This document shows, one piece after another, positions 4,347-19,600 of a stretch of DNA of 30,102 nt (positions within the stretch are counted from its first letter, which is position 1; each line of letters begins with the position of its first letter). Source of the stretch: a virus. The notes beneath the pieces were generated by a model, which was not told the origin of the DNA, did not search any database, and was given only the letters and a program-made list of their open reading frames with translations. Made by a program: the position numbers and the translations under genes. Location of the stretch: positions 1 to 30,102 of IMG/VR virus record IMGVR_UViG_3300044681_000202; one strand, given 5' to 3'.

Positions 4347-4971
4347 ACTACACCCATCTGTTTATGACATAGTGCCTAGCGTTGCTAGCAATGTGTATAA
4401 GAATTACAGGAAGTTTGTTGAGCGTGATGACGTCAAGCAAGAGTGTTTGCACTGGGCTATGACTCGTGCTGTCTATATCAACGAGCAGTTAGGTGAAGAG
4501 GATACAGACAAGCGCAGACATAACGAGCAGAAGATAGCGTGGCAGATGAAGCGTGCAGCTGAACGCTACTGTCGCAAGGAGAAGGCTCACAAGTCTGGCT
4601 ACCAGTTGGGGGACGAGGCATACTACGAGAGCGCAACGCTGGCGCAGTTGCTTCCCTTTGTTATTGCATCAGTACTAGATGGCACAGTGCTAGAGCAAGC
4701 ACAAGAGATGATTCAAGATGGTATGCCTAAGGGTTCATCAAGCCCAGCAGAAGGTGGCAACCTGCTTGCTACACTGATTGATATTAAGAAGGCCTACGTT
4801 GAACTAGAAGAAGAGGATCAGCGCATACTTACGTTGCGCTACCACGAGAACCTTACCCTTGCACAGATAGGCGTAGCCTTGGGTTGTCACTTCACTACTG
4901 CAGACCGCAGATGTAACAGTGCAATGCGACACCTAAATAATCTACTCGGTGGAACCAGTCCGTACAAGTGA
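4339..4971 (+). CDS. Sigma-70 region 4-like transcription factor
   Basis: A 210-residue protein from a GTG with GGAAAG just upstream; an ATG at 4306 in the same frame would add 11 residues but lies deeper in the previous gene. The C-terminal 50 residues (EEEDQRILTLRYHENLTLAQ, then IGVALGC and RRCNSAMRHL) have the layout of a sigma region 4 helix-turn-helix, which contacts the -35 element. The N-terminal half is helical and charged, without a clear region 2. It may be a phage sigma-like factor or a regulator that borrows the region 4 fold. Together with WhiB it suggests redirection of host RNA polymerase. Confidence 0.65.
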   Translation: MTELHPSVYDIVPSVASNVYKNYRKFVERDDVKQECLHWAMTRAVYINEQLGEEDTDKRRHNEQKIAWQMKRAAERYCRKEKAHKSGYQLGDEAYYESATLAQLLPFVIASVLDGTVLEQAQEMIQDGMPKGSSSPAEGGNLLATLIDIKKAYVELEEEDQRILTLRYHENLTLAQIGVALGCHFTTADRRCNSAMRHLNNLLGGTSPYK

Positions 4972-6732: not shown

Positions 6733-6814
6733 CAGTACCACCCTTTTCTGTCGCTGTGTCCGAGAGCGCTACACGAATCGCCTCGATAGCGGTGTTCTTT
6801 AATTTTAAGGCCAT
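6725..6814 (-). CDS. Very small peptide (29 aa) between two coupled genes
   Basis: The ATG lies inside the last codons of the endonuclease VII gene, and the stop overlaps the following 53-residue gene by 8 bases. The sequence starts MALKLKNTAIEAIRVALSD, an amphipathic helix. It may be a genuine micropeptide or a coupling frame that hands ribosomes to the next gene. Overlap on both sides is the only support. Confidence 0.45.
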   Translation of the reverse strand: MALKLKNTAIEAIRVALSDTATEKGGTDV

Positions 6815-7215
6815 CTCTTCGTTACGCTCCACTTCCCTAGATATTTCTCTGCCTTTTCTTTCCAAAGGTTATTCTCTAGCACTCCCAATTTGATATTACA
6901 GGGTGAGCATAGTAAACCTCGTATACATTTACCGCAGGTCTTTTCGGTAGGGCAACACGAGTGGTCGTGGTCTACGTGGAATCTTCCCCTACCCTCAGGT
7001 TGAGGTGAACTACACACAGCGCAACCACCGCCTTGCTCTTCGAGCATACGATCATAGTCTTCAAGCGTAATCTTATACTTGTATTTAAGGGTTGCGCTCT
7101 TCTGCTTCTTAGGATTAGAAGCATACTTAGCACGAGCAGCTTCCCTATCCTTCGCCCTGTATCTTTGCTTCTGCTCCTCGGTGCGAGGGTGGTCTTTGGG
7201 ATTCTTATATGGCAT
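6805..7215 (-). CDS. Recombination endonuclease VII (HNH/His-Me finger)
   Basis: A 136-residue protein with a basic, helical N-terminus (1-45) followed by the T4 endonuclease VII-like module: ITLEDYDRMLEEQGGGCAVC (49-68), VDHDH (81-85), and RGLLCSPCN (99-107). Cys65/68 and Cys103/106 would hold structural zinc; His83 and Asn107 belong to the active site. These enzymes resolve branched DNA or, in phages, nick near packaging sites. The ATG shares its A with the stop of the lysozyme gene upstream (TGATG). An extra Cys pair (CCPTEKTCGKC, 87-97) is inserted between the two halves. Confidence 0.9.
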   Translation of the reverse strand: MPYKNPKDHPRTEEQKQRYRAKDREAARAKYASNPKKQKSATLKYKYKITLEDYDRMLEEQGGGCAVCSSPQPEGRGRFHVDHDHSCCPTEKTCGKCIRGLLCSPCNIKLGVLENNLWKEKAEKYLGKWSVTKRWP

Positions 7216-7634
7216 CAGTACCAGCCTCGTTGGTCGCTATGGGCTTTGGCTCTGCAAGCATCGCCTTTGTAGCGGTGGTTAATGTACTTAATACCTCGAA
7301 GGATTTGTAATTCAGGTCGTGAACTACGCTCTCCAAGGAGTTGAGCAATTCCATAAGCTGAGCTTCCGCGCTGGTTCTTGGCAAGGTGGTCAAACCTGCT
7401 CTCACGGGTCCATAGGGAGACAAGGCATTCTGTCTGCTTTTTCGTATATCCGAGAGCGCGACTATATTCCCTTGCGATTGTCTTGTTCTCACGCTTCTCC
7501 TCCCCTGTCGCCTTCGTCCTCGCCGTTATTATCGGCTTGTGGTCTAGCTGTGGTAGTACTGGCTCGTGTATCCATAGTGCTAGCAATAGTGTTACCAGCG
7601 ATATCAAGCCACCTTTTACCCATACGCTCATCAT
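7215..7634 (-). CDS. Membrane-anchored lysozyme/transglycosylase-like lysis protein
   Basis: A 139-residue protein with one N-terminal hydrophobic segment (about 8-21, GGLISLVTLLLALW) that acts as signal anchor or signal peptide, a charged linker, then a short SLT/lysozyme-like domain from about residue 58. Key features are the catalytic-type Glu78 in LWTRESRF, SSAYGIAQLL (91-100), and the late KYINHRY and HSDQRGWY. This pattern matches the small actinobacterial transglycosylase/resuscitation-like family. It would cleave peptidoglycan from outside the membrane. Its first 146 bases overlap the upstream gene in another frame. A phage lysin role is inferred from fold and anchor. Confidence 0.8.
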   Translation of the reverse strand: MMSVWVKGGLISLVTLLLALWIHEPVLPQLDHKPIITARTKATGEEKRENKTIAREYSRALGYTKKQTECLVSLWTRESRFDHLAKNQRGSSAYGIAQLLGERSSRPELQILRGIKYINHRYKGDACRAKAHSDQRGWY

Positions 7635-7785
7635 TTGCCCTCTCCTGCTCTAGTAATTCCTTATAGTCATCAGGGTGGGCATTAGCCAACCTTGCTAGAG
7701 CGCGATCCCGCGCTCGTCTGTAGTTACGCTGACGCACCGCCATATTGTTGGCGGTGGCTATCCTTCTTGCTACGTCATCAGTCAT
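7489..7785 (-). CDS. Conserved actinophage hypothetical protein (98 aa)
   Basis: The first 60 residues form a strongly basic helix-rich region (ARRIATANNMAVRQRNYRRA, then RDRALARLANAHPDDYKELL) of a type widespread in actinophages; the remaining 38 are Thr/Ala-rich, then acidic and probably disordered. That disordered tail is encoded across the membrane anchor of the lysozyme gene in a second frame, a 146-base overlap. It starts 8 bases inside the preceding 27-residue membrane peptide. Function unknown; nucleic acid or ribosome binding is possible from its charge. Confidence 0.75.
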   Translation of the reverse strand: MTDDVARRIATANNMAVRQRNYRRARDRALARLANAHPDDYKELLEQERANDERMGKRWLDIAGNTIASTMDTRASTTTARPQADNNGEDEGDRGGEA

Positions 7786-7861
7786 TAAGTTTCTCCTCCA
7801 AACGTATAAGAGCGTAGCCTAGCAGTAGCACTAGCCCTAGCCCTATCCAGTACAGCATCAT
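7778..7861 (-). CDS. Tiny membrane peptide (27 aa), possible lysis accessory
   Basis: The frame starts ATG-ATG after an AAGGGGGAG ribosome binding site. It encodes MMLYWIGLGLVLLLGYALIR followed by LEEKLND: one transmembrane helix with a short charged cytoplasmic end. It overlaps the upstream zinc protein by 4 bases and the downstream gene by 8. Position two genes before the lysozyme makes a holin-like or regulatory role conceivable, though 27 residues is shorter than known holins. Confidence 0.55.
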   Translation of the reverse strand: MMLYWIGLGLVLLLGYALIRLEEKLND

Positions 7862-8010
7862 CTCCCCCTTGAATCTACTAGGCTTAGGTATTTATATTCG
7901 CGCTCGCACTCCGAGCAATATCCACACTCCCCACAGGCCGTTCCTGTAAAGGTGATGCACTCCGGGCAGTAAAGGCTCTCACCCTCTTTCTCACACTCTT
8001 CGCAGATCAT
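7858..8010 (-). CDS. Cys-rich zinc protein (50 aa)
   Basis: A GGGAGG ribosome binding site lies 7 bases before the ATG, which overlaps the previous stop (ATGA). The protein has eight cysteines in four CxxC pairs: CEEC, CPEC, CGEC and CSEC, so two zinc sites in a rubredoxin- or treble-clef-like micro-domain are likely. No family can be named. It is one of several Cys-rich microproteins in this leftward module. Confidence 0.75.
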   Translation of the reverse strand: MICEECEKEGESLYCPECITFTGTACGECGYCSECEREYKYLSLVDSRGR

Positions 8011-8249
8011 CTACTAGCCTCCCTTACTAGCTCGGTTACGTCTAGCGGTTGGCCTACTAGGTGAGCATCTTCCTCGTCACTATCCCACCCCGATACAAGG
8101 ATACGAGCTGCGGTTGGTGAATTAGCTATCCACTTCAGCGCCTCCTCCGGGCGTTCTCCTCCCCATTCAGCGTTGCCGTCCTCGTCCACCACCTCATATA
8201 GCAGAATTAACGGTGACTTGCGTGGGTGGAAACTGATTACGTTACTCAT
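8007..8249 (-). CDS. Conserved small phage protein (80 aa)
   Basis: The protein begins MSNVISFHPRKSPLILLYEV, then has WGGERPEEALKWIANSP (29-45) and ARILVSGWDSDEEDAHLVG (48-66). It looks like a compact alpha/beta domain with an acidic surface. ATGA overlaps join it to both neighbours. I recognise the style of a conserved actinophage hypothetical but no function. Confidence 0.7.
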   Translation of the reverse strand: MSNVISFHPRKSPLILLYEVVDEDGNAEWGGERPEEALKWIANSPTAARILVSGWDSDEEDAHLVGQPLDVTELVREASR

Positions 8250-8371
8250 TCACCTTGCTCCCATTCCCCGCAGGCTTGGCAATGCCAGTCACCTATGGCT
8301 TGATTGTAGACCAGTTCATCTATCCCACAATGTACGCAGGGGTGTTCCGTATATCCGTCAGTCATACTCAT
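8246..8371 (-). CDS. Zinc-ribbon microprotein (41 aa)
   Basis: A 41-residue protein with two cysteine pairs, CVHC (12-15) and CQAC (31-34), separated by a short beta hairpin with DWH; this is a minimal zinc ribbon. Its ATG directly follows the stop codon of the upstream gene (TAAATG) and its end overlaps the next gene by 4 bases. Function unknown. Confidence 0.7.
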   Translation of the reverse strand: MSMTDGYTEHPCVHCGIDELVYNQAIGDWHCQACGEWEQGE

Positions 8372-8539
8372 TTACTCTCCCTCACTCTCATCTAGGTTAA
8401 AGATCCGTGCCATAGCTCGGTTCGCTCTCTTCATATTCCGGAGCGCTTCCGCTATTTCCTGCTTCTCTAGCTGCTTGCGTGCTAGGTCGCTGCATAGAGC
8501 AGCTTTAGCGAATAGATATTCTTTCGTTGGCTCGCTCAT
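8372..8539 (-). CDS. Small helical protein (55 aa)
   Basis: The ATG at 8539 has an AGAGGAG ribosome binding site 8 bases upstream and overlaps the preceding stop (ATGA); a longer in-frame start at 8581 lacks these supports. The protein is almost entirely helical and charged (EYLFAKAALCSDLARKQLEK, then ALRNMKRANRAMARIFNLDE), resembling a small dimerisation or regulatory peptide. No family recognised. Confidence 0.65.
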   Translation of the reverse strand: MSEPTKEYLFAKAALCSDLARKQLEKQEIAEALRNMKRANRAMARIFNLDESEGE

Positions 8540-8763
8540 AGGTGATGCTCCTCTCCGTCTAGTACTAGCGTGACTAGGCAAGAATGTGCAAAATTAAGTG
8601 GATCTATTCCTAGCTCACCGGTGATAGATTCCCTTGCTAGCTCTTCTGCTTTATCCCTAGCCTCTTCGCTCATATTGCCTACGGTATCGTCTAGCTCTAC
8701 CGATACTTTCGTGGTGAGTACCCAGTAGTTGCCTACGAATTCCACGTTATAGTCGTACTCCAT
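8536..8763 (-). CDS. Small hypothetical protein (75 aa)
   Basis: The ATG at 8763 follows a GGGAGGGAAA ribosome binding site; a start at 8811 would run through the 22-residue Cys peptide gene. The protein starts MEYDYNVEFVGNYWVLTTKV (beta strands), has an acidic helix in the middle (SEEARDKAEELARESI), and ends with a beta strand CLVTLVLDGEEHHL. It looks like a small folded domain of unknown function. Confidence 0.65.
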   Translation of the reverse strand: MEYDYNVEFVGNYWVLTTKVSVELDDTVGNMSEEARDKAEELARESITGELGIDPLNFAHSCLVTLVLDGEEHHL

Positions 8764-8831
8764 TACTTTCCCTCCCTCTCGCATATACATAACCACTCTA
8801 CTTGCCCGCAATCATCGCAATAATCTTTCAC
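8763..8831 (-). CDS. Cys-rich micropeptide (22 aa)
   Basis: A GTG frame behind an AAGAGGGC ribosome binding site encodes a peptide with CDDC and CIC separated by a short strand, ending EREGK; four cysteines could hold a single zinc. Its stop shares a base with the ATG of the next gene (TAATG). It is very short, but the spacing, the ribosome binding site and the many similar neighbours make it credible. Confidence 0.5.
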   Translation of the reverse strand: MKDYCDDCGQVEWLCICEREGK

Positions 8832-8869
8832 TACTTGCCCTCTTTCTCTCTCCCTCACCCGCGTCTACG

Positions 8870-8904
8870 GGTAGGTCTGCCCTAACAGTTAGGTGCAGAC
8901 TACC
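8870..8904. other. Intergenic hairpin in the leftward module
   Basis: GGTA and GTCTGC (8870-8873, 8875-8880) plus CCTAA (8881-8885) pair with TTAGG (8889-8893), GCAGAC (8895-8900) and TACC (8901-8904), leaving a CAG loop and two single-base bulges. It lies in the 113-base gap after the 60-residue gene. The 3' arm GCAGACTACC recurs at 9856-9865 downstream of the clamp-like gene's promoter side. It may be a processing or termination signal; there is no T-run. Confidence 0.5.
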
Positions 8905-8944
8905 ACACTCTCCCCTATATGTGAGAGAGCGCGATAGTACGCGC

Positions 8945-9127
8945 CTAAAGATAGTTGGCTAGGCTCTCGCTCACTCTCTCATAGGTAGCGTTACCGTTGC
9001 CATAGCTCTTAACCGTAGCCCATAGGCCCGCGTTATCCTTAATCGTCTCTACGATTAAAGCCGGGGTTACTAGGTGCTCTCCCGATAGCGTAAGCACTAA
9101 ATCTTCTGCGCTCATAACTGTATCCAT
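8945..9127 (-). CDS. Small hypothetical protein (60 aa)
   Basis: The ATG at 9127 follows a GAGGAAGAGG tract. The protein begins MDTVMSAEDLVLTLSGEHLV and includes LIVETIKDNAGLWATVKSYG, so a helical fold with a mild resemblance to small regulatory domains, but no family is recognised. Both sides carry intergenic hairpins (8870-8904 and 9167-9190), so it may be an independently processed unit. Confidence 0.6.
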   Translation of the reverse strand: MDTVMSAEDLVLTLSGEHLVTPALIVETIKDNAGLWATVKSYGNGNATYERVSESLANYL

Positions 9128-9166
9128 ATCCTCTTCCTCTCTCTTATCCGGCTAGGTACCGGCCAC

Positions 9167-9190
9167 CGCTCACCGCCTAACCGGTGAGCG
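9167..9190. terminator. Hairpin after the clamp-like gene
   Basis: A perfect 9-base-pair stem, CGCTCACCG (9167-9175) with CGGTGAGCG (9182-9190), and a 6-base loop. On the leftward transcript it starts 12 bases past the stop codon of the clamp-like gene and precedes the next gene by 40 bases. It suits a partial terminator or a processing hairpin; there is no T-run. Confidence 0.5.
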
Positions 9191-9202
9191 ATAGTCTCGC
9201 AC

Positions 9203-9820
9203 CTAGTCTCTAAATTTCATAGGCATAAGCAGCGCCCGCCACGTTACTTTATGGCCGGTTATTCTCACGCGCATAGGCTTAATCTCGCCGTGAAAGTAGA
9301 CCTTGATCCCTGCACCCTTGCCCGCTATCTTCCCGTAATCGGCCATAAAGGCGGGGTTAAAGGCCATACCGTCTACCGCTACCGGCTCTTTTTCGCTATC
9401 GCTAAGTAGCTGCTCTACGGGTGGATAGTTACCGCCTAATAGTGTTACCGTTAAAGAGTCGCCTAATGAGCTAGCGGTGAGAGTGTCACCGATACGCGAT
9501 AGCTGCACGCGGTTAGCCTTATGCGCCTTGCATAGAGTAATAATTCTCTTAATATCGTCTAGCGATATTAGAGACACGTCTAAACGCCCGTCTAGCGCGT
9601 GTAGCGTGCCCTCTATTAGACGGTATCTATCCGTAGCGCGTGCGGTGAGCGCCCCGCCTTCACTCTCAAGCTGCACCGCGTTAAGGGTAGGTAGGCTCTT
9701 ATCCTTAGACGCGTGCGTGCTAACGCCCTCTAGTAGAGTGAGCAAGCTCTCGCCCTCACTCTCCACATAATTTACCGCGTTAGCGCTCTCTTTCACTGTC
9801 TCTCTTTCGATCGTGTTCAC
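9203..9820 (-). CDS. Sliding-clamp-like protein (DnaN-related), short form
   Basis: A 205-residue protein with beta-clamp features: LPTLNAVQLESEGGALTARA (43-62) leading into ATDRYRL (62-68), the conserved strand-turn of DnaN, and the C-terminal ALLMPMKFRD, like the YLLMPVRL end of bacterial clamps. A bacterial clamp has three domains and about 370 residues; this has roughly half, so it may form a trimer-like ring of two-domain subunits or be a clamp modulator. It probably tethers a polymerase or repair proteins to DNA. The GTG start follows GAGGGAGA. It lies on the opposite strand from the other replication genes. Confidence 0.75.
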   Translation of the reverse strand: MNTIERETVKESANAVNYVESEGESLLTLLEGVSTHASKDKSLPTLNAVQLESEGGALTARATDRYRLIEGTLHALDGRLDVSLISLDDIKRIITLCKAHKANRVQLSRIGDTLTASSLGDSLTVTLLGGNYPPVEQLLSDSEKEPVAVDGMAFNPAFMADYGKIAGKGAGIKVYFHGEIKPMRVRITGHKVTWRALLMPMKFRD

Positions 9821-9844
9821 ATTCTCCCTCTTTCATAGGTTAAA

Positions 9845-9887
9845 TCTGCCTAGTGGCAGACTACCGGCCACCGCGTAAGCGGTGACC
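9845..9887. other. Two tandem hairpins upstream of the clamp-like gene
   Basis: TCTGCC (9845-9850) pairs with GGCAGA (9855-9860) around TAGT; next CACCGC (9869-9874) pairs with GCGGTG (9879-9884) around GTAA, with CGG/CCG extending it past one mismatch. They occupy the 79-base gap between the 43-residue membrane protein gene and the clamp-like gene on the leftward transcript. The segment GCAGACTACC links this element to the hairpin at 8870-8904. Confidence 0.5.
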
Positions 9888-9899
9888 GATAGACCGCAG

Positions 9900-10031
9900 C
9901 TAGTACTCTTTCCCGGTGAGCTTAGCGATTAGCCACCATATAGCCTCCACCGCTACCCATAAGAGCACGCCGGCCACCGCGTAAGCTGCTATCGCTAGCA
10001 GCACGCTCACTAAATAGAGCAGCTCACTCAT
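9900..10031 (-). CDS. Small two-helix membrane protein (43 aa)
   Basis: The frame encodes MSELLYLVSVLLAIAAYAVA followed by GVLLWVAVEAIWWLIAKLTG and KEY: either one long or two short transmembrane segments with a basic C-terminus. This resembles small phage holins or superinfection-exclusion proteins. It overlaps the preceding small gene by 8 bases. A lysis role would be consistent with the membrane-anchored lysozyme further along the same transcript but is not shown. Confidence 0.65.
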   Translation of the reverse strand: MSELLYLVSVLLAIAAYAVAGVLLWVAVEAIWWLIAKLTGKEY

Positions 10032-10137
10032 TATCTTCACTCTCTTCTTTTGGCGCGGGTATATATTCAATAGAGCCACGGCCTAGAGCGTTTAGGCGCA
10101 CCGTGTAGGCGTGGCGTAGGTCTACGTTCTCGCTCAT
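10024..10137 (-). CDS. Small hypothetical protein (37 aa)
   Basis: The ATG shares its A with the preceding stop codon (TAATG) and the end overlaps the membrane protein gene by 8 bases. The peptide begins MSENVDLRHAYTVRLNALGR and ends with an acidic tail (KEESEDNE). No family or function recognised. Confidence 0.55.
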   Translation of the reverse strand: MSENVDLRHAYTVRLNALGRGSIEYIPAPKEESEDNE

Positions 10138-10499
10138 TAGAGCCACCGGTGCGAGAGCTTATAGCCGGCTCTCTCTTCGCCGTGAAAGAGCACGCTAGAA
10201 AGGTTATAGACAAGGTGAAAGCCCATATCCATTCCGCACCCGTGCACACGTATCGCGTCGCTACCGTTGCGAGAGACTAGCCTATCTCCCGTCGCTTTCG
10301 CTGCGCTGTAATTAATGTGGTAAGGCTCTCCATTCTTAATATAAACTAGAGAGATATCCCGCGACATACCGGAAGAGCTAACGTAGCGCAATACTGTATA
10401 AATAACCGGCTTATCATCTCCGGCGAAAAGGTTACGTAATCTTTCTATGCTCTCGCTGCGCTCTAATTCTGCTGCAGCTTTCTTAGTTAGTGTAGTCAT
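10137..10499 (-). CDS. Conserved actinophage protein with GCGMDMGF motif
   Basis: A 120-residue protein with several highly conserved-looking blocks: VIYTVLRYVSSSGMSRDISL (32-51), IRVHGCGMDMGFHLVYNLS (83-101) and GYKLSHRWL at the C-terminus. Proteins with this set of motifs are common in actinophages, and also occur in other phages, as hypothetical proteins. The Cys-containing GCGMDMG loop might be an active or metal site. It is linked to its neighbours by one-base overlaps. Confidence 0.8.
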   Translation of the reverse strand: MTTLTKKAAAELERSESIERLRNLFAGDDKPVIYTVLRYVSSSGMSRDISLVYIKNGEPYHINYSAAKATGDRLVSRNGSDAIRVHGCGMDMGFHLVYNLSSVLFHGEERAGYKLSHRWL

Positions 10500-10768
10500 T
10501 AGTTAGTCTCCTTAGTAGTGCCGTAATAGCAAGCGTTACAGTAGCCGTATAGTGCGTTATCTGCATTCTTATAGCAGATAACACATAGACTTTCTAGTAG
10601 TCGCTGCACCATAGCTAAAGCCTCACTATAACCTTGCTCGTATAAACGGTTAACAGTATCGTCAAAATTTTCTTTATAGTCGCTATCAAAAGTAGCGCGC
10701 TCTAGCTTTTCGTAAGCCCAATAGCTGCGCTGATATTCTGCATTTATTTTTTCAACTATCTCTTTCAC
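10499..10768 (-). CDS. Hypothetical protein with C-terminal zinc ribbon (89 aa)
   Basis: The first 55 residues are helical (EIVEKINAEYQRSYWAYEKL and onward), and the last 30 contain CVIC and CNAC, a zinc ribbon. The GTG at 10768 has only a weak ribosome binding site (AGATAGAAAA). It appears to be the first well-supported gene of the leftward module after the control region. Function unknown. Confidence 0.65.
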   Translation of the reverse strand: MKEIVEKINAEYQRSYWAYEKLERATFDSDYKENFDDTVNRLYEQGYSEALAMVQRLLESLCVICYKNADNALYGYCNACYYGTTKETN

Positions 10769-11037
10769 TTTTCTATCTCTTTTCTGTAGCCGTGTTAGGT
10801 GGTGGCCACAGGATAACGATAGCAGAATTTATAGGTGCGTCTACCCCATTTAGAGGGTAATTTTTCGATCGTGGAATTGTGACCTATCGGCTATCGGGTA
10901 GCCGGTGGCCGGTAGCTGCAGCGGTTAGCCGGTGGCCTATGGCTATCTCTTAGCAGCTGCACCGGTGGAGAGCTGCACCGGTTAGGCGATTACTTAACGG
11001 GCTAGGGCTTAGCGGATAGCGGTTACTTAATGAAGAG
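10769..11037. other. Non-coding stretch with iteron-like repeats
   Basis: No credible gene is seen here. It contains an 8-base palindrome GTGGCCAC near 10813, a possible leftward -10 (TATAAA, near 10831-10836 read on the minus strand), direct repeats between 10899 and 10982, and a further pair, GATTACTTAACGG near 10987 and GGTTACTTAATGA near 11023. It separates the leftward genes from the remaining control region. Confidence 0.6.
10899..10982. repeat. Iteron-like direct repeats, candidate origin or operator
   Basis: TAGCCGGTGGCC occurs exactly at 10899-10910 and 10926-10937. AGCTGCACCGGT occurs exactly at 10955-10966 and 10971-10982, with a one-mismatch copy (AGCTGCAGCGGT) at 10914-10925. 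The core CGGTGGCC also recurs as its complement in gaps at 9161-9168 and 9866-9873 and inside the membrane gene at 9972-9979. Clustered short direct repeats near a divergent junction suit protein binding, for an origin or a regulator. Confidence 0.6.
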
Positions 11038-11280
11038 TTAGGAAGAGATAGGGGTGCCGTGGGGATAGTCCGCCCCTGCATACTTTTCAACAAGGTAGAC
11101 ATAACCGCCCCAACTGTCTAACCACCCCCGCCCCCTTGCCGTCTCACCAACTGAGACTGACCCCAGATGTTTAATTTTCGGGCGGGCGGTCCCTGTACTC
11201 CCCAACAAAAAATATTTGCTAAAGTGAAAGCCGTGATCTAGCCTCTGACCTGCGCTTTTAGTAACAGTGATGAACGTCAC
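11038..11280 (-). CDS. Doubtful hypothetical protein (80 aa)
   Basis: An open frame with a GTG start and no ribosome binding site in the right place; a GGAGG tract lies about 20 bases further upstream. The translation has a protein-like second half (GWLDSWGGYVYLVEKYAGAD) but no recognisable family. It would be the first gene of the leftward module, behind a possible -10 in the TATATA stretch near 11318-11324. If it is not a gene, the whole of 10769-11599 is control sequence. Confidence 0.4.
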   Translation of the reverse strand: MTFITVTKSAGQRLDHGFHFSKYFLLGSTGTARPKIKHLGSVSVGETARGRGWLDSWGGYVYLVEKYAGADYPHGTPISS

Positions 11281-11316
11281 ATTCTAAAACCGCTAAATGG
11301 ACCTCCGTTAGCGCCT

Positions 11317-11324
11317 TATATATA
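11317..11324 (+). promoter_or_regulatory. Possible -10 box for the structured leader
   Basis: TATATATA sits 2 to 9 bases before the first stem of the cloverleaf-like RNA, which would place initiation at about 11328-11331, within the first stem. No good -35 box is seen at 16-18 bases upstream, so it may need a phage factor, or serve the minus strand instead. Confidence 0.35.
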
Positions 11325-11325
11325 G

Positions 11326-11399
11326 TAGGGGAGCAAAGCGGGGAAGATTGGCTTTGCGACCCGTTACGCTACGGGTGGAACCCTTCGCGTAGGCCCCTA
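11326..11399 (+). ncRNA. Candidate structured RNA, cloverleaf-like
   Basis: Closing stem TAGGGG (11326-11331) with CCCCTA (11394-11399) encloses three hairpins: GCAAAGC/GCTTTGC (11333-11339 with 11351-11357, 7 pairs), ACCCGT/ACGGGT (11359-11364 with 11371-11376, 6 pairs) and a weak CCT/AGG (11382-11384 with 11391-11393). Linkers are 1, 1, 5 and 0 bases. The size and topology resemble a tRNA, but anticodon-loop length, T-loop consensus and CCA end are missing. An alternative hairpin, GGCC-CCTA-GGCC (11392-11403) flanked by CTTC/GAAG, would break the closing stem, so two exclusive folds are possible. Strand and function are inferred. Confidence 0.5.
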
Positions 11400-11560
11400 G
11401 GCCGAAGCGAGACTTACCCCTCACTGCGCTGTGGCTTGTTCGGGAGCTTGCTCCCGCTGCGGTGCTTAAATATGGGATAGGTCTATCCAGTATTGAATCT
11501 CATATTTTAAGATTTTGTAAGGTACCAGTATTAGGACACTTCCCAACCTAGTATAAAAAT

Positions 11561-11583
11561 AAAAAGGCCTCACGGCGCTTTTT
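11561..11583 (+). terminator. Intrinsic terminator or attenuator before the late operon
   Basis: AAAAAG plus GCC (11561-11569) pair with GGC and CTTTTT (11574-11576, 11578-11583) around a TCAC loop with one bulged G. A GC core with a T-run on the plus strand is the standard intrinsic form; the A-run followed by further A-rich sequence upstream gives an even longer T-tract for leftward RNA. It ends only two bases before the GGGAAGGA ribosome binding site of the gene at 11600, so readthrough from upstream would be controlled here. Confidence 0.7.
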
Positions 11584-11599
11584 AGGGAAGGACTCCAGT

Positions 11600-11752
11600 A
11601 TGTTTGTTTACCAGGTAGACCGTAAGTACAAGAAGCACTACACGGCGTCCCGCCGCAAGGCAGACCAGGAATTTCTGAAAGAAGCACGGCGCAAGATCGC
11701 AGCAGCGATTCTCGTGGAAGAAATGAGACGAGAAGCAGATGGCAGAAAATAG
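11600..11752 (+). CDS. Small basic protein before terminase (50 aa)
   Basis: ATG with a GGGAAGGA ribosome binding site 7 bases upstream. The peptide has a short strand-like start (MFVYQVDRKYKKHYTASRRK) and an amphipathic basic helix (EARRKIAAAILVEEMRREAD). Its 3' end overlaps the terminase gene by 14 bases, which couples their translation. It is too short for a normal terminase small subunit but could be a DNA-binding partner in packaging. No family recognised. Confidence 0.65.
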   Translation: MFVYQVDRKYKKHYTASRRKADQEFLKEARRKIAAAILVEEMRREADGRK

Positions 11753-13598
11753 CGCCGATATAGCCAAGAGGATTATCCTCGGCTGCGTCGCAGAAGGTAT
11801 GACCATTGAGGCCGCTTGCGGCTCAGCTGGTAAGAGTCTTAAGACGTACGAGTATTATCGTCGCACCGATAAGGTTTTTGCAGATAAGGTAGATCGTACC
11901 CGTCTCGGCCTGAAGGATAAAGCCTTTGCCTCAGGGGATGTCCACGATATAGATTTCGCCGAGTTCCGTCAGCGCTTCCTACACAGCCGGACCTTTCCGC
12001 ACCAGCAGAATCTAGTAGATGTGATTGAAGGCCGTGAACCTTCTTGGCTACATCCTAGTATGAAGTTCGAGCCGGGCCTTGCCTCTAACCGCGTACTGAT
12101 TAACATTCCGCCAAACCACGCCAAGTCCATCACAATCACGGTGGACTACGTAACGTGGAAGGTCGCCCAGAATCCGAACTTTAGAGTTCTGATAGTTTCC
12201 CAGACACAGCAATTAGCTGCTGACTTTCTCTACGCCATCAAGCAAAGACTGACTCACCCGATGTATCAAGACCTTCAAGCGGCATACGCTGCTGGCGTAG
12301 GGTTTAACTCTAAGTCTGCATCTTGGCAGGCAACCCGTGTGACCTTTGGTGATGAACTCCGTGAGTCATCTGAAAAGGATCCAAATATCGAAGCCGTCGG
12401 TATCGGCGGTCAGATTTACGGTAAGCGTGCCGATATGATTATTGTCGATGACGCGGTCACCTTAAAGAACGCTAATGAGTTTGAGAAGCAGATTCGCTGG
12501 CTAACCCAGGACGTGCGTTCTCGTTTGAACCCTACTGGTAAACTGGTAGTTATTGGAACGCGTGTTGCCTCAGTAGATTTATACCGCGAGTTACGTCAAG
12601 AAGATAGATACCCAGGTGGCCTAGTACCTTGGAAGTATCTAGCGATGCCAGCCCTTTTAGAAGCGCACGAGGATCCCGATAAGTGGGTTACCCTCTGGCC
12701 GTACTCGGATGCACCATTTGACGGGCAAGAAGAATCCGATAAGAACGAAGAGGGTCTATATCCTCGCTGGTCTGGTCGTAACCTCTACAACGAACGTCAG
12801 GCTATGGATGCCTCAACGTGGGCGCTGGTCTACCAGCAACAAGATGTCTCTGAGAACGCAGCCTTTGACCCAGTATGTGTCAAGGGTTCGATTGATGGAA
12901 TGCGTAAGTCTGGCCGACTTGAGCCAGGACATCCGGGCCATCCAAAAGATTTAAGTGGCTTTTCTATTATCTGCGGTATGGACCCGGCCATCGTTGGAGA
13001 TACTGCAGCTATCTGTTATGCCGTAGACCGTTCCACCTCTAAGCGCTACATTGTAGATGCGCTTAAGGTCACACGCCCCTCACCGCAACAGATCCGCGAC
13101 ATTATCTTGAACTGGACTTCGCTCTACTCGCCCAGTGAGTGGATTATTGAGAAGAACGCTTTTCAGGCTTTTTTAACTCAGGATGAAGGCATTAAACAAT
13201 TTTTAGCATCTCGCGGCGTTCTCCTCAAGGAACACCATACTGGTTCTAATAAGTGGGACTCAGGATTCGGTGTTGCATCTATGGCTACCCTCTTCGGTAC
13301 CAAGCAACACGACGGTAAGCACCACCGAGATAACTTAATACATCTACCTAGTGACCAGACTGAAAACGTCAAGGCTCTTATCGAGCAGTTGATTACGTGG
13401 ACACCTACCACTAAGGGTAAGACAGATATGGTGATGGCACTCTGGTTCTGTGAGATTAGAGCAAGAGAGATGCTCAACTACGGCCAGTACGCCACCCACC
13501 ATTTGAAGAATCCATTTTTAACTAGCGCAGAAAAGCGCAAACGAGTAGTCGTCAATATAGACGAGATGCTTGCTAACCAGAACAAACTGTTCGTCTAA
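11739..13598 (+). CDS. terL: Terminase large subunit with N-terminal helix-turn-helix
   Basis: A 619-residue packaging motor. Residues about 8-55 (GMTIEAACGSAGKSLKTYEY is the core) resemble the helix-turn-helix of small terminase subunits. The ATPase follows: deviant Walker A PPNHAKS (124-130), Walker B MIIVDD (233-238), coupling motif VIGTR (271-275). The RNase H-like nuclease domain has acidic residues Asp415 in CGMDPA, Glu471 in IIEKNAFQ and Asp563 in KTDMVMALW. It would pump DNA into the prohead at the portal and cut concatemers. No separate small terminase gene is seen nearby, so the N-terminal domain may supply DNA recognition. Confidence 0.95.
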   Translation: MAENSADIAKRIILGCVAEGMTIEAACGSAGKSLKTYEYYRRTDKVFADKVDRTRLGLKDKAFASGDVHDIDFAEFRQRFLHSRTFPHQQNLVDVIEGREPSWLHPSMKFEPGLASNRVLINIPPNHAKSITITVDYVTWKVAQNPNFRVLIVSQTQQLAADFLYAIKQRLTHPMYQDLQAAYAAGVGFNSKSASWQATRVTFGDELRESSEKDPNIEAVGIGGQIYGKRADMIIVDDAVTLKNANEFEKQIRWLTQDVRSRLNPTGKLVVIGTRVASVDLYRELRQEDRYPGGLVPWKYLAMPALLEAHEDPDKWVTLWPYSDAPFDGQEESDKNEEGLYPRWSGRNLYNERQAMDASTWALVYQQQDVSENAAFDPVCVKGSIDGMRKSGRLEPGHPGHPKDLSGFSIICGMDPAIVGDTAAICYAVDRSTSKRYIVDALKVTRPSPQQIRDIILNWTSLYSPSEWIIEKNAFQAFLTQDEGIKQFLASRGVLLKEHHTGSNKWDSGFGVASMATLFGTKQHDGKHHRDNLIHLPSDQTENVKALIEQLITWTPTTKGKTDMVMALWFCEIRAREMLNYGQYATHHLKNPFLTSAEKRKRVVVNIDEMLANQNKLFV

Positions 13599-13607
13599 GG
13601 AGATATG

Positions 13608-13982
13608 ATGGCGATTTCAAATCGTGGTGAAATGGGAGTCGGTGGCGGCTCACGCGGCGGTTCAGGTGGAGGCTCACGTGGACGCGTTAGCGTTTCTACA
13701 CGTAGTAGCGAACTTGACAAAGATACTAAGCGCTCTGTAAAGAAGCAAAACAAAGCAGCAGACTCTTACAAGATTAAAGATATGGATGCGCTAGAAAAAG
13801 GCCAGAAGTATCGTGCTGCAAAGAAAGCAGCTGATGCTGCAGCAAGAGCAAAAGAAATTAAAAAGGCAGAGAAAAAGGGAATGATTAAAGGCGCTGCAGC
13901 AACTGCAGGCCTTGGCTCGGCAATCAAGCTCACCACATTTACTGGTGATAAGAAAAAAGATAAAAAGAAATCAGGTAAATAA
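13608..13982 (+). CDS. Gly-rich and Lys-rich low-complexity protein (124 aa)
   Basis: AGGAG lies 5 bases before the ATG at 13608; the ATG at 13605 would be too close. The N-terminus is Gly/Ser/Arg-rich (GEMGVGGGSRGGSGGGSRGR), the middle is a Lys/Ala-rich helix (AAKKAADAAARAKEIKKAEK), then a small hydrophobic stretch and a Lys-rich end. The composition suggests a disordered, DNA-binding or internal head protein. It lies between terminase and portal in the late operon. No family recognised. Confidence 0.6.
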   Translation: MAISNRGEMGVGGGSRGGSGGGSRGRVSVSTRSSELDKDTKRSVKKQNKAADSYKIKDMDALEKGQKYRAAKKAADAAARAKEIKKAEKKGMIKGAAATAGLGSAIKLTTFTGDKKKDKKKSGK

Positions 13983-14125
13983 TGCCAGCAATGAATACAC
14001 CTAAGCCTAAGCCAAAGACGACTAAGAAGCCATTGACTGCTTCTGAAAAGGCATTTATCAAGAACCAAAAAGAAAAAGCGAAAGCCACAAAAAGAACCGG
14101 CGTTTATCCAAACACAGCAAATTAA
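13982..14125 (+). CDS. Small Lys/Pro-rich protein (47 aa)
   Basis: The ATG overlaps the preceding stop (TAATG). The peptide starts MPAMNTPKPKPKTTKKPLTA and has a central basic helix (SEKAFIKNQKEKAKATKR), ending TGVYPNTAN. Its charge resembles the preceding gene, so both could be DNA- or capsid-associated. Stop is 9 bases before the portal start. Confidence 0.6.
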   Translation: MPAMNTPKPKPKTTKKPLTASEKAFIKNQKEKAKATKRTGVYPNTAN

Positions 14126-14134
14126 GGAACCCCA

Positions 14135-15865
14135 GTGCTAACACCAAAAGAAGTTAACGCGAAGTTAGGTCGCTTGCAGACCAAGTTTGCAGCACGCGAC
14201 CAACGTATGCGTGACGTCCTTTCGGTGCGTCAAGGAGATCTATCAAAGGTCTATCCTTCGATGTTCTCCGATGATTACCCAAAGCCACTCGTTGCTAACT
14301 TCATTGACGTTGCAGCCCGTGACTTGGCAGAAGCAATGGCACCACTGCCATCCTTTAACTGCTCTGCATCTAATATGGTTTCCGATTCAGCGCGTAAGGC
14401 TGCTGATACTAGAACTCGTATCGCTAACTTCTATGTTGGCGTATCAGAGTTACAGCTTCAGATGTATGAAGGTGCCGACTGGTACAACACATACGGAATG
14501 ATGATTGGTATGGTCGAGATGGACTACGACTCTAACAATCCACGTATGCGCCTGCTCAACCCTTGGGGTTGCTACCCAGAGATAGACCGCTTTGGTCGCG
14601 TAGTTTCTTTAACTCAGGTTCTCAATACCGATACAGAAACTCTTGCCGCTAAGTACCCAGAGTTCGCAGAACAGATCTACAAAAAGAATAACTATCAGCC
14701 TGGTAACCCATATATCACTATGGTCCGTTACCACGACGACGAGCAAGACCTTATCTACTTACCAGAGCGTCAGAACTTAACTCTTGTACGCACACCAAAC
14801 CCAGTAGGTAAGTGCCTTGTACGCGTATCAATGCGTCCATCTCTTGATGGTCAAGCACGTGGTCAGTTTGATGATGTTTTGGCAGTACAGCTCGCACGCG
14901 CTCGCTTTGCAATCTTGCAGATTCAAGCAGCAGAAAAATCTATCCAAGCACCTATTGCTATCCCACAGGATGTGCAGGAACTTGCTCTTGGTCCAGATTC
15001 AATTATGCGTTCTGCTCAGCCACAGAACATCCGTCGCGTAGGCCTAGAACTTCCACCAGGAGTATTTACAGAATCAGGAGTACTCGAACGTGAACTACGG
15101 CTTGGCGCTCGTTACCCTGAGTCACGATCCGGAAACCTCAACGCGAGTGTTATTACTGGTCGTGGGGTCCAAGAGCTGCAGGCTGGCTTTGATACTCAAA
15201 TTAAATCCGCACAAGCCCAGTTCGCTAGAATGTTCGGCGATCTTATTGGGTTATGCTTTGAAGTAGACGAAAAGCTATTTACTAACGTACAGAAGACAAT
15301 CAAGGGTTCAGAAGATGGAACGCCTTACGTATTGAAGTACACACCAGGACGCGACATTCGTGGCGAGTACGGTGTAGAAGTACGTTACGGAATTATGTCT
15401 GGTATGGACCCATCACGTGCAATCATTGCACTCTTGCAGATGCGTTCCGACAAGTTGGTTTCCCGCGACTATGTACGCCGTGAGATTCCAATGGACCTCA
15501 ACGTCACACAGGAGGAACAGCGTGTTGATATTGAAGAAATGCGCGATGCTCTTCGTGTTTCTGTTGCCCAGTATGCACAGGCGATACCTGCTCTTGCAGC
15601 GCAGGGGCAAGACCCTTCACAGATTGTCTCTCGTATCGCAGAGGTTATCAAGGGTCGTCAAAAAGGATTAGCACTCGAATCAATCGTGGAGAAGGTATTT
15701 ACACCTGAACCACAGCCAGAGATGGCACCCGAACTTCCAGTAGCAGGTGTGGCCCCCGCTCCTGCCTCGCAGCAACCTCCACAAGTACAAAGTGGTTCGG
15801 CCCCTGCTACTGGTCAAACTCCAGATATAGCCACACTACTAGCCGGAATTACCGGCGCAGCGTAA
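14135..15865 (+). CDS. Portal protein
   Basis: A 576-residue protein directly after the terminase block, starting at GTG with AAGGAA upstream. It has typical portal features: an N-terminal helical region (PKPLVANFIDVAARDLAEAM), the wing-like stretch NPWGCYPEIDRFGRVVSL and the stem/crown helices after residue 300, ending in a Pro/Gln/Ala-rich tail of about 45 residues. The portal forms the dodecameric vertex through which DNA enters and leaves. Assignment is by size, position between terminase and scaffold/capsid genes, and general resemblance. Confidence 0.8.
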   Translation: MLTPKEVNAKLGRLQTKFAARDQRMRDVLSVRQGDLSKVYPSMFSDDYPKPLVANFIDVAARDLAEAMAPLPSFNCSASNMVSDSARKAADTRTRIANFYVGVSELQLQMYEGADWYNTYGMMIGMVEMDYDSNNPRMRLLNPWGCYPEIDRFGRVVSLTQVLNTDTETLAAKYPEFAEQIYKKNNYQPGNPYITMVRYHDDEQDLIYLPERQNLTLVRTPNPVGKCLVRVSMRPSLDGQARGQFDDVLAVQLARARFAILQIQAAEKSIQAPIAIPQDVQELALGPDSIMRSAQPQNIRRVGLELPPGVFTESGVLERELRLGARYPESRSGNLNASVITGRGVQELQAGFDTQIKSAQAQFARMFGDLIGLCFEVDEKLFTNVQKTIKGSEDGTPYVLKYTPGRDIRGEYGVEVRYGIMSGMDPSRAIIALLQMRSDKLVSRDYVRREIPMDLNVTQEEQRVDIEEMRDALRVSVAQYAQAIPALAAQGQDPSQIVSRIAEVIKGRQKGLALESIVEKVFTPEPQPEMAPELPVAGVAPAPASQQPPQVQSGSAPATGQTPDIATLLAGITGAA

Positions 15866-15882
15866 CCGAAGGAGGTGCAAAT

Positions 15883-16011
15883 ATGAACAAGGGATCACAC
15901 GCTCCAGCCCCAGTACAACCAATCAAGGTTGACACTAAGGCAGGATCAGTTAAGGGCGGTAAAGTTGACTTCGGTTATGCCGGAACAGCTCGCAAAGGCA
16001 AGAAGGCTTAA
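15883..16011 (+). CDS. Small basic protein (42 aa)
   Basis: A strong GAAGGAGG ribosome binding site precedes the ATG. The peptide (MNKGSHAPAPVQPIKVDTKA and then Gly/Lys-rich) is probably unstructured and positively charged. Similar tiny basic genes flank portal genes in many phages. No function known. Confidence 0.65.
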   Translation: MNKGSHAPAPVQPIKVDTKAGSVKGGKVDFGYAGTARKGKKA

Positions 16012-16031
16012 TAAGTAGAAAGGCGTACGGG

Positions 16032-16244
16032 ATGATAGAAGACAACAGAGTACGTCCTCCCGTGCGCCGTTCTCACTTCGTAGTTGTATTTGCAGAATTT
16101 GCATTTAACTTAATGCAGGCAATCACAGGATTTTTTGAAGCGTTATATGAATTAAGTATTTACCACGCTAATCGCAAGACAGAAGAGAACTTCGCGTGGG
16201 AGAAAATGACACAAGACCTAGAGACTTTAGAGGAGGACAAATGA
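16032..16244 (+). CDS. Small protein with hydrophobic helix (70 aa)
   Basis: Residues 15-43 (FVVVFAEFAFNLMQAITGFF and on to ALYELSIY) form a long hydrophobic or amphipathic helix flanked by basic N-terminal and acidic C-terminal ends. It may be membrane-associated or a helical virion component. GAAAGG lies upstream of the ATG. Its stop overlaps the next gene start by 4 bases (ATGA). Confidence 0.6.
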   Translation: MIEDNRVRPPVRRSHFVVVFAEFAFNLMQAITGFFEALYELSIYHANRKTEENFAWEKMTQDLETLEEDK

Positions 16245-16648
16245 CAACTGCGCCAATGAACCCATTAGCAGGTCCTTCAGGTCCAGGGCAGTATTCAACT
16301 CGTACAGATAAACTCGATATGGGTTCAACATCATACGGAGAAGGCAAAGAGACAAAGGCTATTAAGTCTGCAATTCCTCTTGCTACTACTCCAGATACAC
16401 GACCTACTCCAGCAGCAGAGGTACGTGAAGCAGCAGTTTCCAGACCAGTTGGATTGTTCGCAGAAAGTATGCGCCCAACAGAAGATGTTATGGTCGGCAC
16501 AGATGCAGGACCAGGAGAAGGTTCATCTATCCTTGGTATGAAAAAAGCAGTAATGAAGACTTCTGATACTCTAGCAAAACTTCTACCTTTTGATACAGAC
16601 GGCTCTATTGCTATCTTGTATTCAGAAGCAGTAGCGCGAGGTGACTAG
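16241..16648 (+). CDS. Hypothetical virion-associated protein (135 aa)
   Basis: The ATG at 16241 has a GAGGAGG ribosome binding site; an earlier in-frame start at 16196 would overlap the upstream gene and lacks one. The first 90 residues are Pro/Thr/Gly-rich and probably disordered (MTTAPMNPLAGPSGPGQYST), and the last 40 form helices (SILGMKKAVMKTSDTLAKLL). The following 1556-residue gene starts at the next base after the stop. No family recognised. Confidence 0.6.
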   Translation: MTTAPMNPLAGPSGPGQYSTRTDKLDMGSTSYGEGKETKAIKSAIPLATTPDTRPTPAAEVREAAVSRPVGLFAESMRPTEDVMVGTDAGPGEGSSILGMKKAVMKTSDTLAKLLPFDTDGSIAILYSEAVARGD

Positions 16649-19600
16649 GTGGCTGATAATCTAAAAGCAGCCGCAGCTGCTGCAGGTTTAAGTCCAGATG
16701 AAAGAAAAGCAATGGAAGCATTGCAAAAAACTCTTTCTGTACACAGAGAATTATCAAACCTTCCGACACGAACTGCTCAACAAGCGTACGCTTCTAAGAC
16801 ACCTGAACAGCAGGCAGCGCTTAAGCGCGTAGCCGGAGAAGAAGATCCTGCTACTAAGCCACAGCGTGGTTGGTGGGGTAGCGCTTGGCACTATACAGGC
16901 GGTGCTTTGCTTCAGGGTTTACAGGAAGTTTCAGACCTAACAACTCGTGCTTATCGTGCTGCAGTTATTCCTATTGCAGAACGCGGTGAACTTGGATTTG
17001 CTTGGACAGAAGCCAATGACAAAGGCGACAAGGTATTCAATACAGGTCGTATCGAAAGAGCCAAGTCTAAGTTTGGTGTAGATCGCGTAAATGTAGCAAT
17101 GCGTGTTGCAGCTGGTGAAAAGTTATCAGATATTGCATCTTCAGGTACTATTGAAGAACGCAACATTGCAGCACTTGCTGCACAGAATAAAGATGATTTA
17201 TTCCAAGATGCGCTTGATGCTACTCAGGCTGCTAAGTACTCACCTGGTCGTCAGATTGCTAACCTTATTACTCCAGAAGAGGTAGAGGGTTCAGGCTTCT
17301 TTTATCGTGCGGTATCAGGTGCATTCGATGCAGCATACCGAGTATTAGCAGATCCACTACTTATTGCTGGTAAAGCAAAGCGTGCAGTTGATATCTCAAA
17401 TTACGCACTTGATGTGGTAATTGGTGGCGGTAAAGTAGACGAAGTATTTGCACGTCCACAAGTTCAAGACTTTTGGAATCAGTACGGCGCAGAGCTTGCT
17501 AACTACAAGAAGGCTATTAACGAAGGTGCTACACAAGAAGCAGTCAATATTAAGAGACGTCTTAATGTACTAGCACCAGAGTTTGGTGACCCAGTTATCA
17601 AGTCATTCATTGATATTGATGTACCAGTTACGGATGCTCTTACGGCAAAGGCTTTCTTCCAAAACGCTGACCAAGTAGCAGAAATGATGAAGGGCCAAAT
17701 TGGTCGCAAGCGCGTAATGATTCCACGTATGGACGCACTTCGCCAAGCACGCGTAAACGTAGTCACTACTGCTAACCGTATATTTAATATGGACAAAATT
17801 GCTCCACGCTTTATTGACGACCTTTATTTTGCTGGTGCTGCAACCGATGATGGCATAGCGCAAGCAATTATTGACGGCAAAGAAACTATCGTCACAAATG
17901 TTAAGGCAAAAGCAAATGCCAAGAAAACAGCACGTTTTTCTATGGAGCAAATTCAGTATAGAATTGATAGATTCAAGGCTAAGTTTAGTTTAGTTCCTTT
18001 CTTTGAAGATAGCCTCTTTGATGTAACTTCTGCAGACGGTGCTGAAAAGGTATATCGTTATGCACGTTTAATCTTGCCAAAGAACGATTCTAAACTTATT
18101 GCTCAGGCTTTTGATAATGCAGAAGTTGGCCGTAAGAAAGAAATCTTCTATGGCCTGCAGTCAACTATTGCAGACATTCGTGGTCTTAACGTAACAAAAG
18201 AAGGCAAGGTCATTTCAGACCCAATGCGTCTTGGTCCTAATAAAGTTTTTGCAGCTACAGATCCAAAAACCGGATACAACCCTGCTGCACTACCAGACGG
18301 CGAGCAGGTTGGTCTTATTCTATCTGACCTTTCTGATTATGTAACAACACTCAGTGTTCGTGATATTGACCGAGCAGCTGCGCGTTCTGGCCTTATACAA
18401 AGATTATTTGGTCTTGCACATTCTGGTTGGGTAGAAAAGATGACCACAGCCTGGTCATTCTTGACTCTTGCTGGTCCACGTTATGCCATCCGTAACGCAA
18501 CAGAAGACCTAATGGTCCACCTTGCAATCGGTGAATCTCCATTTGGTCTTGTTAAAGGACGTATGCTTTCTACCCGTTTGCGTACAGCACGTCAAATGGA
18601 AAAGGGCCTAACTGGTTTTGATGAAATATCTGCTAACCCACTTGGTGGAGTTATGCGCTTTGTCAATCGTAAAGAAGCAAAACGATACGGAGCAGAGATT
18701 GAAGCAGCTGACGGAGATGTTAAGAAAATCCGTGAGATTACTGCACGTGCTTTGAATGAAGGTAAGTTAACTCGCTTCTATGAGAAGGCTGGACTCGGTA
18801 AGTTTACAGACGATGATCGCGCTGCTTTAGCAGAGCAGATTCTATACGGTGACCTAGACAATGCCCTTATGGATGTCGTTGAAGGTGGTAAGAACGCATT
18901 TACCGGGCTTGATTCCTATACCCGTACTATTAACTTTACCCGTAAAAACAAAGTTCGTACAGCAGAATTATCGTACGATATAGAAAAAGGTCGCGTTGCA
19001 CTTGGTAGAGGTGCAGGTGGCTATAAGCCAATGGCTCCTATTGCAGATGAAGCATCACAAATTGCTTGGATTATGCGTATTGGTTATTACTCTAACGATA
19101 AGTTAGGTCGTATTGCGGTAGCAAACCTTTCAGATGATGCTGAAGAAGCAAAAGAAGCGGTAGCAAAGATTTCTGCGTGGTTGCAAGATCCAAAAAATGC
19201 TAAGTTAGTAGCAGCTTTCCGTATGGAAGAGCGCGGTATTAGCGTTGATGAACACGCACAGCGCGTCTATAATGCAGCAAAGCAGTTGTTTGTTAAGCAA
19301 GATGGCAAGATTAACCAAGATTTGTTGAGCAAAGTGCGTGCATTTGATGAGACTGCAGGCGAATGGCGTATTACAGGTAAACTTGGCTTAGACGATTTAC
19401 CAAAAGATATAGCAGATGTACCAACATACATTGTTGGACCACAGTTAGTACCTATCTCTGATAGCGAAAACTACGCTAGTTCCTTTATGGAGTGGGGATG
19501 GGACTGGTTAGGTAACGCTAACGCACGCCTATCACGCGAACCTATGGTTCTTGCTGAAATGATTAAGCTACGTAAGCAGTTTAAGAAGAGTGGCTTTGAA

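Follow-up and report, generated by a model that had tools for sequence, protein, structure and literature searches.

A conserved structured RNA upstream of the late operon in phages whose probable hosts are freshwater actinobacteria

What the DNA between two divergent blocks of phage genes does is the question raised by a 30,102-base linear IMG/VR virus record (IMGVR_UViG_3300044681_000202), the whole of which was analysed and is called the window below. Its leftward-transcribed genes lie at 6805-10768, and the late genes, on the plus strand, extend over at least 18 kb within the window. These include the terminase large subunit TerL (11739-13598; phrog_38, E 2.4e-62), with a portal and a capsid protein encoded 3' of it. 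The first late gene, in the window as in some relatives (among them L003), is a 50-aa ORF on the plus strand (11600-11752), for which a family search gave no match. Two further genes code for a WhiB protein (998-1264), which points to an actinobacterial host, and for a sigma-70 region 4 protein (4306-4971); a whiB-like factor encoded by Nanopelagicales phages is described in PMC10202952. The closest named TerL proteins, 46% identical, are those of the isolated Planktophila phages LanE43AprE7/F5, and it is from this kinship, rather than from the habitats of the contigs, that freshwater actinobacteria are taken to be the probable hosts of the window's phage group. At the nucleotide level, no relatives of 10769-11750 were found in INPHARED.

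To judge from its relatives, this region holds a structured RNA that keeps one position. A TerL search of IMG/VR returned related phage contigs, at least 80 in number, of which the best 80 loci were retained, and a profile search of these loci seeded with window positions 11306-11500 matched in 76, a few of the matches being partial and that of L048 being an inverted copy at a contig end. In the four unmatched loci (L017, L052, L055, and L058), the DNA upstream of TerL measures 60 nt at most; L044, whose contig begins 232 nt upstream, was also missed by a later profile. A sequence pattern built from the RNA returned at least 120 IMG/VR stretches, with 117 new loci. In 188 of the 193 profile-matched loci, TerL is encoded downstream of the RNA and on the same strand, at a distance of 10-644 nt (median 103); of the remaining five, four show no TerL in the 136 nt or less of DNA that follows the RNA, and the fifth is the inverted end of L048. 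The loci fetched by the RNA pattern behave likewise, with TerL downstream in 113 of 117 and too little DNA in the other four. As 20 contigs occur twice, having been found both via TerL and via the RNA pattern, the 188 loci correspond to about 168 contigs, and the RNA is thus carried by well over a hundred IMG/VR contigs, a lower bound from the matches listed. What follows the RNA varies both in distance and in identity, the first gene being the 50-aa ORF, tRNA genes or TerL directly, which fits control at the level of the operon rather than of a gene.

Searches elsewhere gave little. The RNA pattern had no matches in bacterial genomes, and the 15 matches of the TerL pattern there included no TerL relatives. 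No second copy was evident in the whole phage contigs, 19 records being searched with the window sequence; the single match in the record behind L048 is the inverted piece, and the weak extras are neighbouring pieces or matches of 11-19 bases. That inverted piece (L048, 1-69) comprises part of the 5' portion of the RNA and is probably an assembly fold-back. The window has no match in Rfam 15 at the gathering threshold; admitting hits up to E 10 added two, both at chance level, and the matches in 17 other loci were three tRNAs only. Some tRNA genes are lodged between the RNA and TerL (L051:2115-2187, L065:477-549, L076:537-609); in the window itself, ARAGORN found no tRNA.

Compensating changes were sought in 86 sequences, dereplicated from 177 usable records (similarity ratio 0.96 over 175 nt; length at least 190 nt) and realigned with a covariance model made from 25 of them. 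Standard pairs make up 94.3% of the 1466 cells counted over 20 pairs and six helices, versus 80.9% after shuffling (sd 0.5, 0 of 500 as high), and 15 of the 20 tested pairs show changes on both sides; sliding the partner columns by 1-3 positions leaves at most 50.1% paired. These counts, like the scan that follows, use an alignment fitted to the tested structure, which favours that structure. The null of the tree-aware scan scatters the substitutions anew at random over the sequence positions, following a FastTree tree that was itself built from the RNA (100 simulations). Of the 10,878 column pairs, three reach E<0.05; these are Watson-Crick pairs in the hairpins P1, P3, and P5, and those ranked next have E above 2. 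At the top stands 11393-11402 in P3 (GC 51, CG 21, UA 13), accompanied by 11334-11356 in P1 (CG 29, UA 24, GC 5, AU 5, with one mismatch) and 11424-11438 in P5 (CG 41, GC 33, AU 2, with one mismatch). When the scan is run by subtype, one pair passes in each, 11334-11356 in type A and 11424-11438 in type B. Taken together, the evolutionary evidence is strong and makes it highly probable that this is a structured RNA.

The covarying hairpins P1, P3, P5, and P6 span about 130 nt of the plus strand. P1, the 5' hairpin (11328-11362), has GGG/CCC outer pairs, a GA/GA internal loop and a GCAAAGC/GCUUUGC stem; it covaries, and its arms occur as 32 distinct arm pairs in the 86 phages, a count from a best-stem search that misassigned some of them. 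P2 (UACGC/GCGUA, with an inner P2a, GGGU/ACCC; 11365-11391) is predicted from the minimum-energy fold and read from the sequences as an alternative to the lower part of P3. It was kept outside the covariation counts because P2 and P6 are put in the wrong place from one type to another in the first alignment (A2). P3 (11385-11410), a covarying GGCC-CCUA-GGCC hairpin, is extended by UCGC/GCGA through a GUA/GAA loop, which is GA/GA in many relatives. Two pairs of this extension, picked after seeing the scan, are 83.7% paired versus 60.2% when shuffled, with covariation reached in 0 of 500; one of them covaries (GC 26, GU 23, CG 15, AU 14, UA 2), and in 22 of 86 sequences the other does not pair. 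There follows GACUUACCCC (11411-11420), whose UUACCCC part is invariant in the 25-sequence alignment and which can pair with 11474-11483 to form a predicted helix P9. P5 (11423-11439) consists of AC/GU pairs around a near-invariant loop, NCGCUGURGCU, its pair 11423-11439 being unpaired in 23 of 77, and P6 (11441-11456) is a CGGGAG-CUUG-CUCCCG hairpin that covaries and accounts for helices 5 and 6 of the six. The possible 3' strand of P9, GGGAUAGGUC (11474-11483), comes from the predicted fold; a similar sequence is present in the short RNAs that have no P5 and P6, a type found in 10 of 86 (L006, L011-L015, L019, L020, L025, and L043). Neither of the long-range helices P8 and P9 is supported by covariation (P9 scores 12.1 versus 12.05 shuffled), and P9 is a fold prediction only.

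How this structure relates to the original prediction can now be stated. That region 11281-11600 is a foldable leader holds well, as it is conserved and its fold (-111.7 kcal/mol, z -2.81) beats all 100 shuffles. The hairpin predicted at 11441-11456 is P6. The predicted four-stem cloverleaf at 11326-11399 survives in one stem, 11333-11339/11351-11357, which is real and covaries, but two others find no support. The closing stem (11326-11331/11394-11399) is conserved in sequence and has no compensated pairs (89.6 versus 89.9% shuffled, with one pair broken in up to 29 of 86), and 11359-11364/11371-11376 is paired in 40.5% of cells versus 38.2% shuffled, 50 of 500 shuffles being as high; the alignment behind the two counts had been fitted to a different structure and disfavours both stems. 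The comparison with related phage contigs that had been proposed as a check thus found compensation in P1, P3, P5, and P6 but none in the closing stem. A tRNA or tRNA-like cloverleaf was rejected, the acceptor-type closing stem being without compensation and ARAGORN finding none. When 11327-11476 is folded to minimum energy, a cloverleaf-like junction does appear, with 11417-11421 closing it, but the other cut tried (11327-11490) folds differently. By energy, the RNA part is less striking than the whole region, with z -2.23 for 11327-11490 (3 of 200 shuffles as good) and z -1.57 for 11327-11476 (14 of 200), so that energy by itself would not prove structure; seven single sequences of the window's group have modest z-scores, from -0.14 to -2.89.

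Directly upstream of the RNA lies the AT-rich box that had been noticed at the position of a promoter, and this too is borne out. The -10-like box TATAGT (11321-11326, plus strand) is part of a TA[TC]AGTA motif found in 79 of 86 sequences, with TATATATA in 50 of 86. A consensus promoter scan gave a single match, TGGACC-17-TATAGT ending at 11326, which is at chance level by itself (0.9 expected), and the case for a promoter rests for this reason on the conservation of the box. Further upstream is a conserved dyad (11266-11281, with a GTGA-N6-TCAC core at 11267-11280), present with at most one mismatch in each of the 81 sequences that extend far enough upstream, against a mean of 2.4 and a maximum of 6 after shuffling. 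It stands 50-51 nt before the AGTA of the RNA in 54 of the 81 and 63-66 nt before it in 20, and we take it to resemble a site of the CRP/GlxR protein family. A second inverted repeat, CGCTAA/TTAGCG (11291-11313), overlaps the -35 region; its arm complementarity is 14.42, versus 12.72 (sd 0.25, max 13.4) for arms swapped between 82 phages.

The same stretch probably contains the packaged left end of the genome. Of 88 whole-contig loci, 26 have a contig end in the 600 nt before the RNA, where random placement predicts 7.4, and four have one in the 600 nt after it; in 13 of those 26, the contig ends 234-276 nt upstream. When compared by eye with sister contigs, 14 of the 16 distinct contig starts in this zone lie no more than about 14 nt from a conserved motif, GCCG...GGNTAG-CCGCCC, the two out of line being L143 and L092. 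Judged from these assembly ends, 11054-11076 (GTGCCGTGGGGATAGTCCGCCCC) is probably a cos site; its overhang would measure about 12 nt and the left end would lie near 11055-11068, with the RNA starting about 260 nt inside it. Short degenerate repeats (GTTAGCCGGTGGCC, AGCTGCACCGGT) occupy 10790-11030, on the side of this probable site away from the RNA. Direct repeats are seen between the RNA and TerL, as in the window, where CCAGTATT/CCTAGTAT start at 11487, 11525, 11547, and 11595 (11487-11602 overall) and an 8-mer is repeated at a spacing of 38 nt. Pairs about 16-47 nt apart are present in the window as well as in L040, L056, L059, L018, and L054, and the unit is constant within a phage and differs among phages (CCTAGTA, CCAGGTA, CAGCTAA, CCGCTAA, CCCACCATT). 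The longest direct repeat averages 7.4 versus 5.7 nt when shuffled and reaches at least 8 nt in 39 of 86; such repeats are perhaps binding sites for a co-evolving protein such as the small terminase.

Hairpin-rich leaders are also found at comparable places in other actinophages. The Planktophila phages LanE43AprE7/F5 (PMC10202952) and their IMG/VR relatives resemble the window's group in having, upstream of TerL, a promoter-like box and hairpins with varying arms, but their leader is a different one, AT-rich and with other later hairpins. Its anchor was found in 57 of 82 loci, 19 after dereplication, and in all 19 the best hairpin of the opening 36 nt scanned is better than the mean for shuffled sequences. 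In 15 this hairpin starts at or very near the first base, and in L215, L218, L240, and L253 it starts later. Some hairpin loops of this clade (L199-L281) look able to pair downstream, e.g., in L213, L215, and L246. Homology between the two leaders was rejected: the covariance model of the window's RNA had no convincing relative in 25 loci (24 of the Planktophila-phage clade and one Streptomyces phage), the best hits (E 0.12 and 0.52) being on the other strand and elsewhere, and nhmmer did not find the RNA in L199-L201, the last of which is the Streptomyces phage.

In the mycobacteriophages L5 and D29, the late transcript starts about 230 bp from the left genome end, as determined by RNA-seq (PMC5712189). 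The 171 nt of D29 (L284) from position 225 fold with z -5.57, the hairpins forming an array over 225-370, which the mapped start would place in the late mRNA; the relevant passages of PMC5712189 do not mention this array as an RNA element. Nine mycobacteriophages (D29 and L285-L292) have 150-nt leaders near the left end with z -5.40 to -8.98, and in each of them five or six hairpins rich in GC precede the first late gene. The eight besides D29 were picked from a spread of 30 among the 241 records that match, and are therefore related to D29 in this very stretch. L5/D29-type phages belong to cluster A. Their leaders resemble the window's in being a hairpin array near the left end, which in D29 begins close to the mapped late start, and are unlike it in the hairpins themselves, such as a varying stem around an AACC-like loop. 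The covariance model found nothing in D29, the one mycobacteriophage searched with it, and the array belongs to no Rfam family. These analogues thus have only place and hairpins in common with the window's RNA.

What, then, might the RNA do? It has the properties of a cis-acting leader, namely a conserved structure, the same direction as the late operon and a position upstream of that same operon. In the explanation that we prefer, with middling confidence, it is the 5' leader of the late operon and protects or licenses the long late transcript in cis. The promoter, with its -10 box at 11321-11326 some 260 nt inside the packaged left end, would give rise to a rightward transcript, whose first 150-odd nt would fold while emerging into a chain of hairpins, P1, P2/P3, P5, and P6, beginning at or beside the first transcribed base and ending 10-644 nt before terL. 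This RNA would then guard polymerase and late mRNA against early termination, either in the manner of put RNA or by denying Rho a loading site. The conserved RNA structure, its single place and strand, its promoter-like context and the hairpin-rich leaders of other actinophages are direct observations; that the window's phage transcribes the RNA, the position of the start and the protective or licensing step are what we infer. An operon-level role in cis is favoured by the cis arrangement together with the changing first gene and the comparable hairpin chains elsewhere. On the other side, intrinsic terminators are not in excess in 11290-30102 (18 on both strands, four of them on the plus strand, versus 16.5 expected), which leaves no obvious target for antitermination and counts against it, and the near-invariant loops, which look more like the mark of a specific partner than of a generic shield, also count against this explanation.

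The 3' end of the RNA bears on whether the leader might instead be an attenuator, i.e., end in a regulated intrinsic terminator at which a phage or host factor decides whether transcription reads on into terL. The terminator that had been predicted at 11561-11583 (plus strand) does not hold up, since it is weak, bulged in the minimum-energy fold, missing from the terminator scan and not conserved, and a stricter scan found terminator-like sites between the RNA and TerL in only 5 of 84 loci, with none in the window, one of the 84. About 100 nt upstream of that position, at the 3' end of the RNA, most relatives have a terminator-like U-run (67 of 86 by a pattern of our own, the run found in L007 being a later one). 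At 11457-11470, where relatives have UUUUAG, some of them after a terminator-like hairpin, the window has no U-run, nor do 18 others. By reading, 20 of the 67 have a hairpin at least as stable as -8 kcal/mol that stops no more than 4 nt from the U-run, and several others form none; one example is L071, with GTCGTGC-CAA-GCACGAC-TTTT about 45 nt before the TerL start. These strong hairpins fit attenuation or a discrete small RNA as well as the preferred explanation. Against attenuation stand the 19 dereplicated sequences without a U-run, window included, the ten short-type RNAs that have no 3' half at all and the lack of a clear mutually exclusive antiterminator pairing, the candidate helix, a long-range partner of the arm before the U-run, scoring 11.0 versus 10.46 shuffled (sd 0.29, max 11.39). 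We therefore regard attenuation as unlikely. The original proposal of a leader before the late operon is accordingly retained for its position, promoter-like context and compensating changes, but not for the cloverleaf fold or the attenuating terminator.

A leader that merely stabilizes the late mRNA, its 5'-terminal hairpin and hairpin chain slowing decay and leaving transcription untouched, is a rather improbable alternative. It would agree with P1 lying at or beside the likely start site, with the hairpin at the same position in 15 of 19 Planktophila-clade leaders and with the D29 array starting close to the late start mapped in PMC5712189, but the near-invariant UUACCCC and P5 loop exceed the needs of a 5' hairpin. 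It is more doubtful still that the RNA acts in trans, as a regulator or as a packaging RNA like the pRNA of phi29, after being processed from the leader or terminated within it: the terminator-like ends of some relatives, the strong conservation and the location between the probable cos site and the terminase speak for this, whereas the RNA was not seen away from terL (188 of 193 loci have it just upstream on the same strand), has no Rfam match and precedes an ordinary TerL, unlike the gp16 of phi29. Very improbable indeed is a role at the DNA level, in which the inverted repeats would serve cos and packaging or be operators for proteins. Its proponents could point to the probable cos site within 260 nt, to the CRP-like dyad, second dyad and direct repeats that flank the RNA and to mismatch types that are ambiguous as a strand test (27 G-U versus 33 A-C cells). 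It is contradicted by the tandem G-A internal loops in P3 and P1, which are flanked by covarying pairs, by the asymmetry of the loops and of the UUACCCC strand and by the conserved promoter-like box directly upstream.

The leader RNA thus constitutes a well-supported and so far unnamed family that is absent from Rfam, and no description of it was found in the titles and abstract openings of the papers listed from the open-licence PMC literature. Its place is at the switch to virion production. Among the named classes, the put RNA of phage HK022 (PMC9378689) is a structured leader of about 70 nt with two stem-loops, found near a phage promoter in early operons, that causes read-through of terminators in cis via contact with the zinc-binding domain of beta'. 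The likeness lies in the structured leader near a promoter and in the similar working proposed here by analogy; the window's RNA is unlike it in being about 150 nt long, in having at least four hairpins and in standing before late genes, and membership in the put class was rejected, since P1, P3, P5, and P6 covary over about 130 nt. The gp16 of phi29 is another kind of ATPase than ordinary TerL. The window's TerL belongs to phrog_38, the large terminase, so a partner of the gp16 kind was not found and assignment to the phi29-type prohead RNA (PMC6765105) was likewise rejected. Both are structured RNAs adjoining packaging genes, but the prohead RNA works with gp16, while the window's RNA lies in cis before the gene for TerL.

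A tentative wider reading, for which the odds seem to us rather poor, is that actinophages share a class of late-leader RNAs, acting in cis through RNA alone or with the assistance of a host factor, by antitermination or by shielding from Rho. In the window's group, the Planktophila phages and the mycobacteriophages, a hairpin chain would run from a late start located 225-270 nt inside the cos left end, the sequence having diverged until it can no longer be recognized and the place and architecture having been kept. If late leaders are general in actinophages, D29 in M. smegmatis, where late transcripts have been mapped, allows a clear test of whether a non-coding chain of hairpins decides if the late operon is transcribed to its end.
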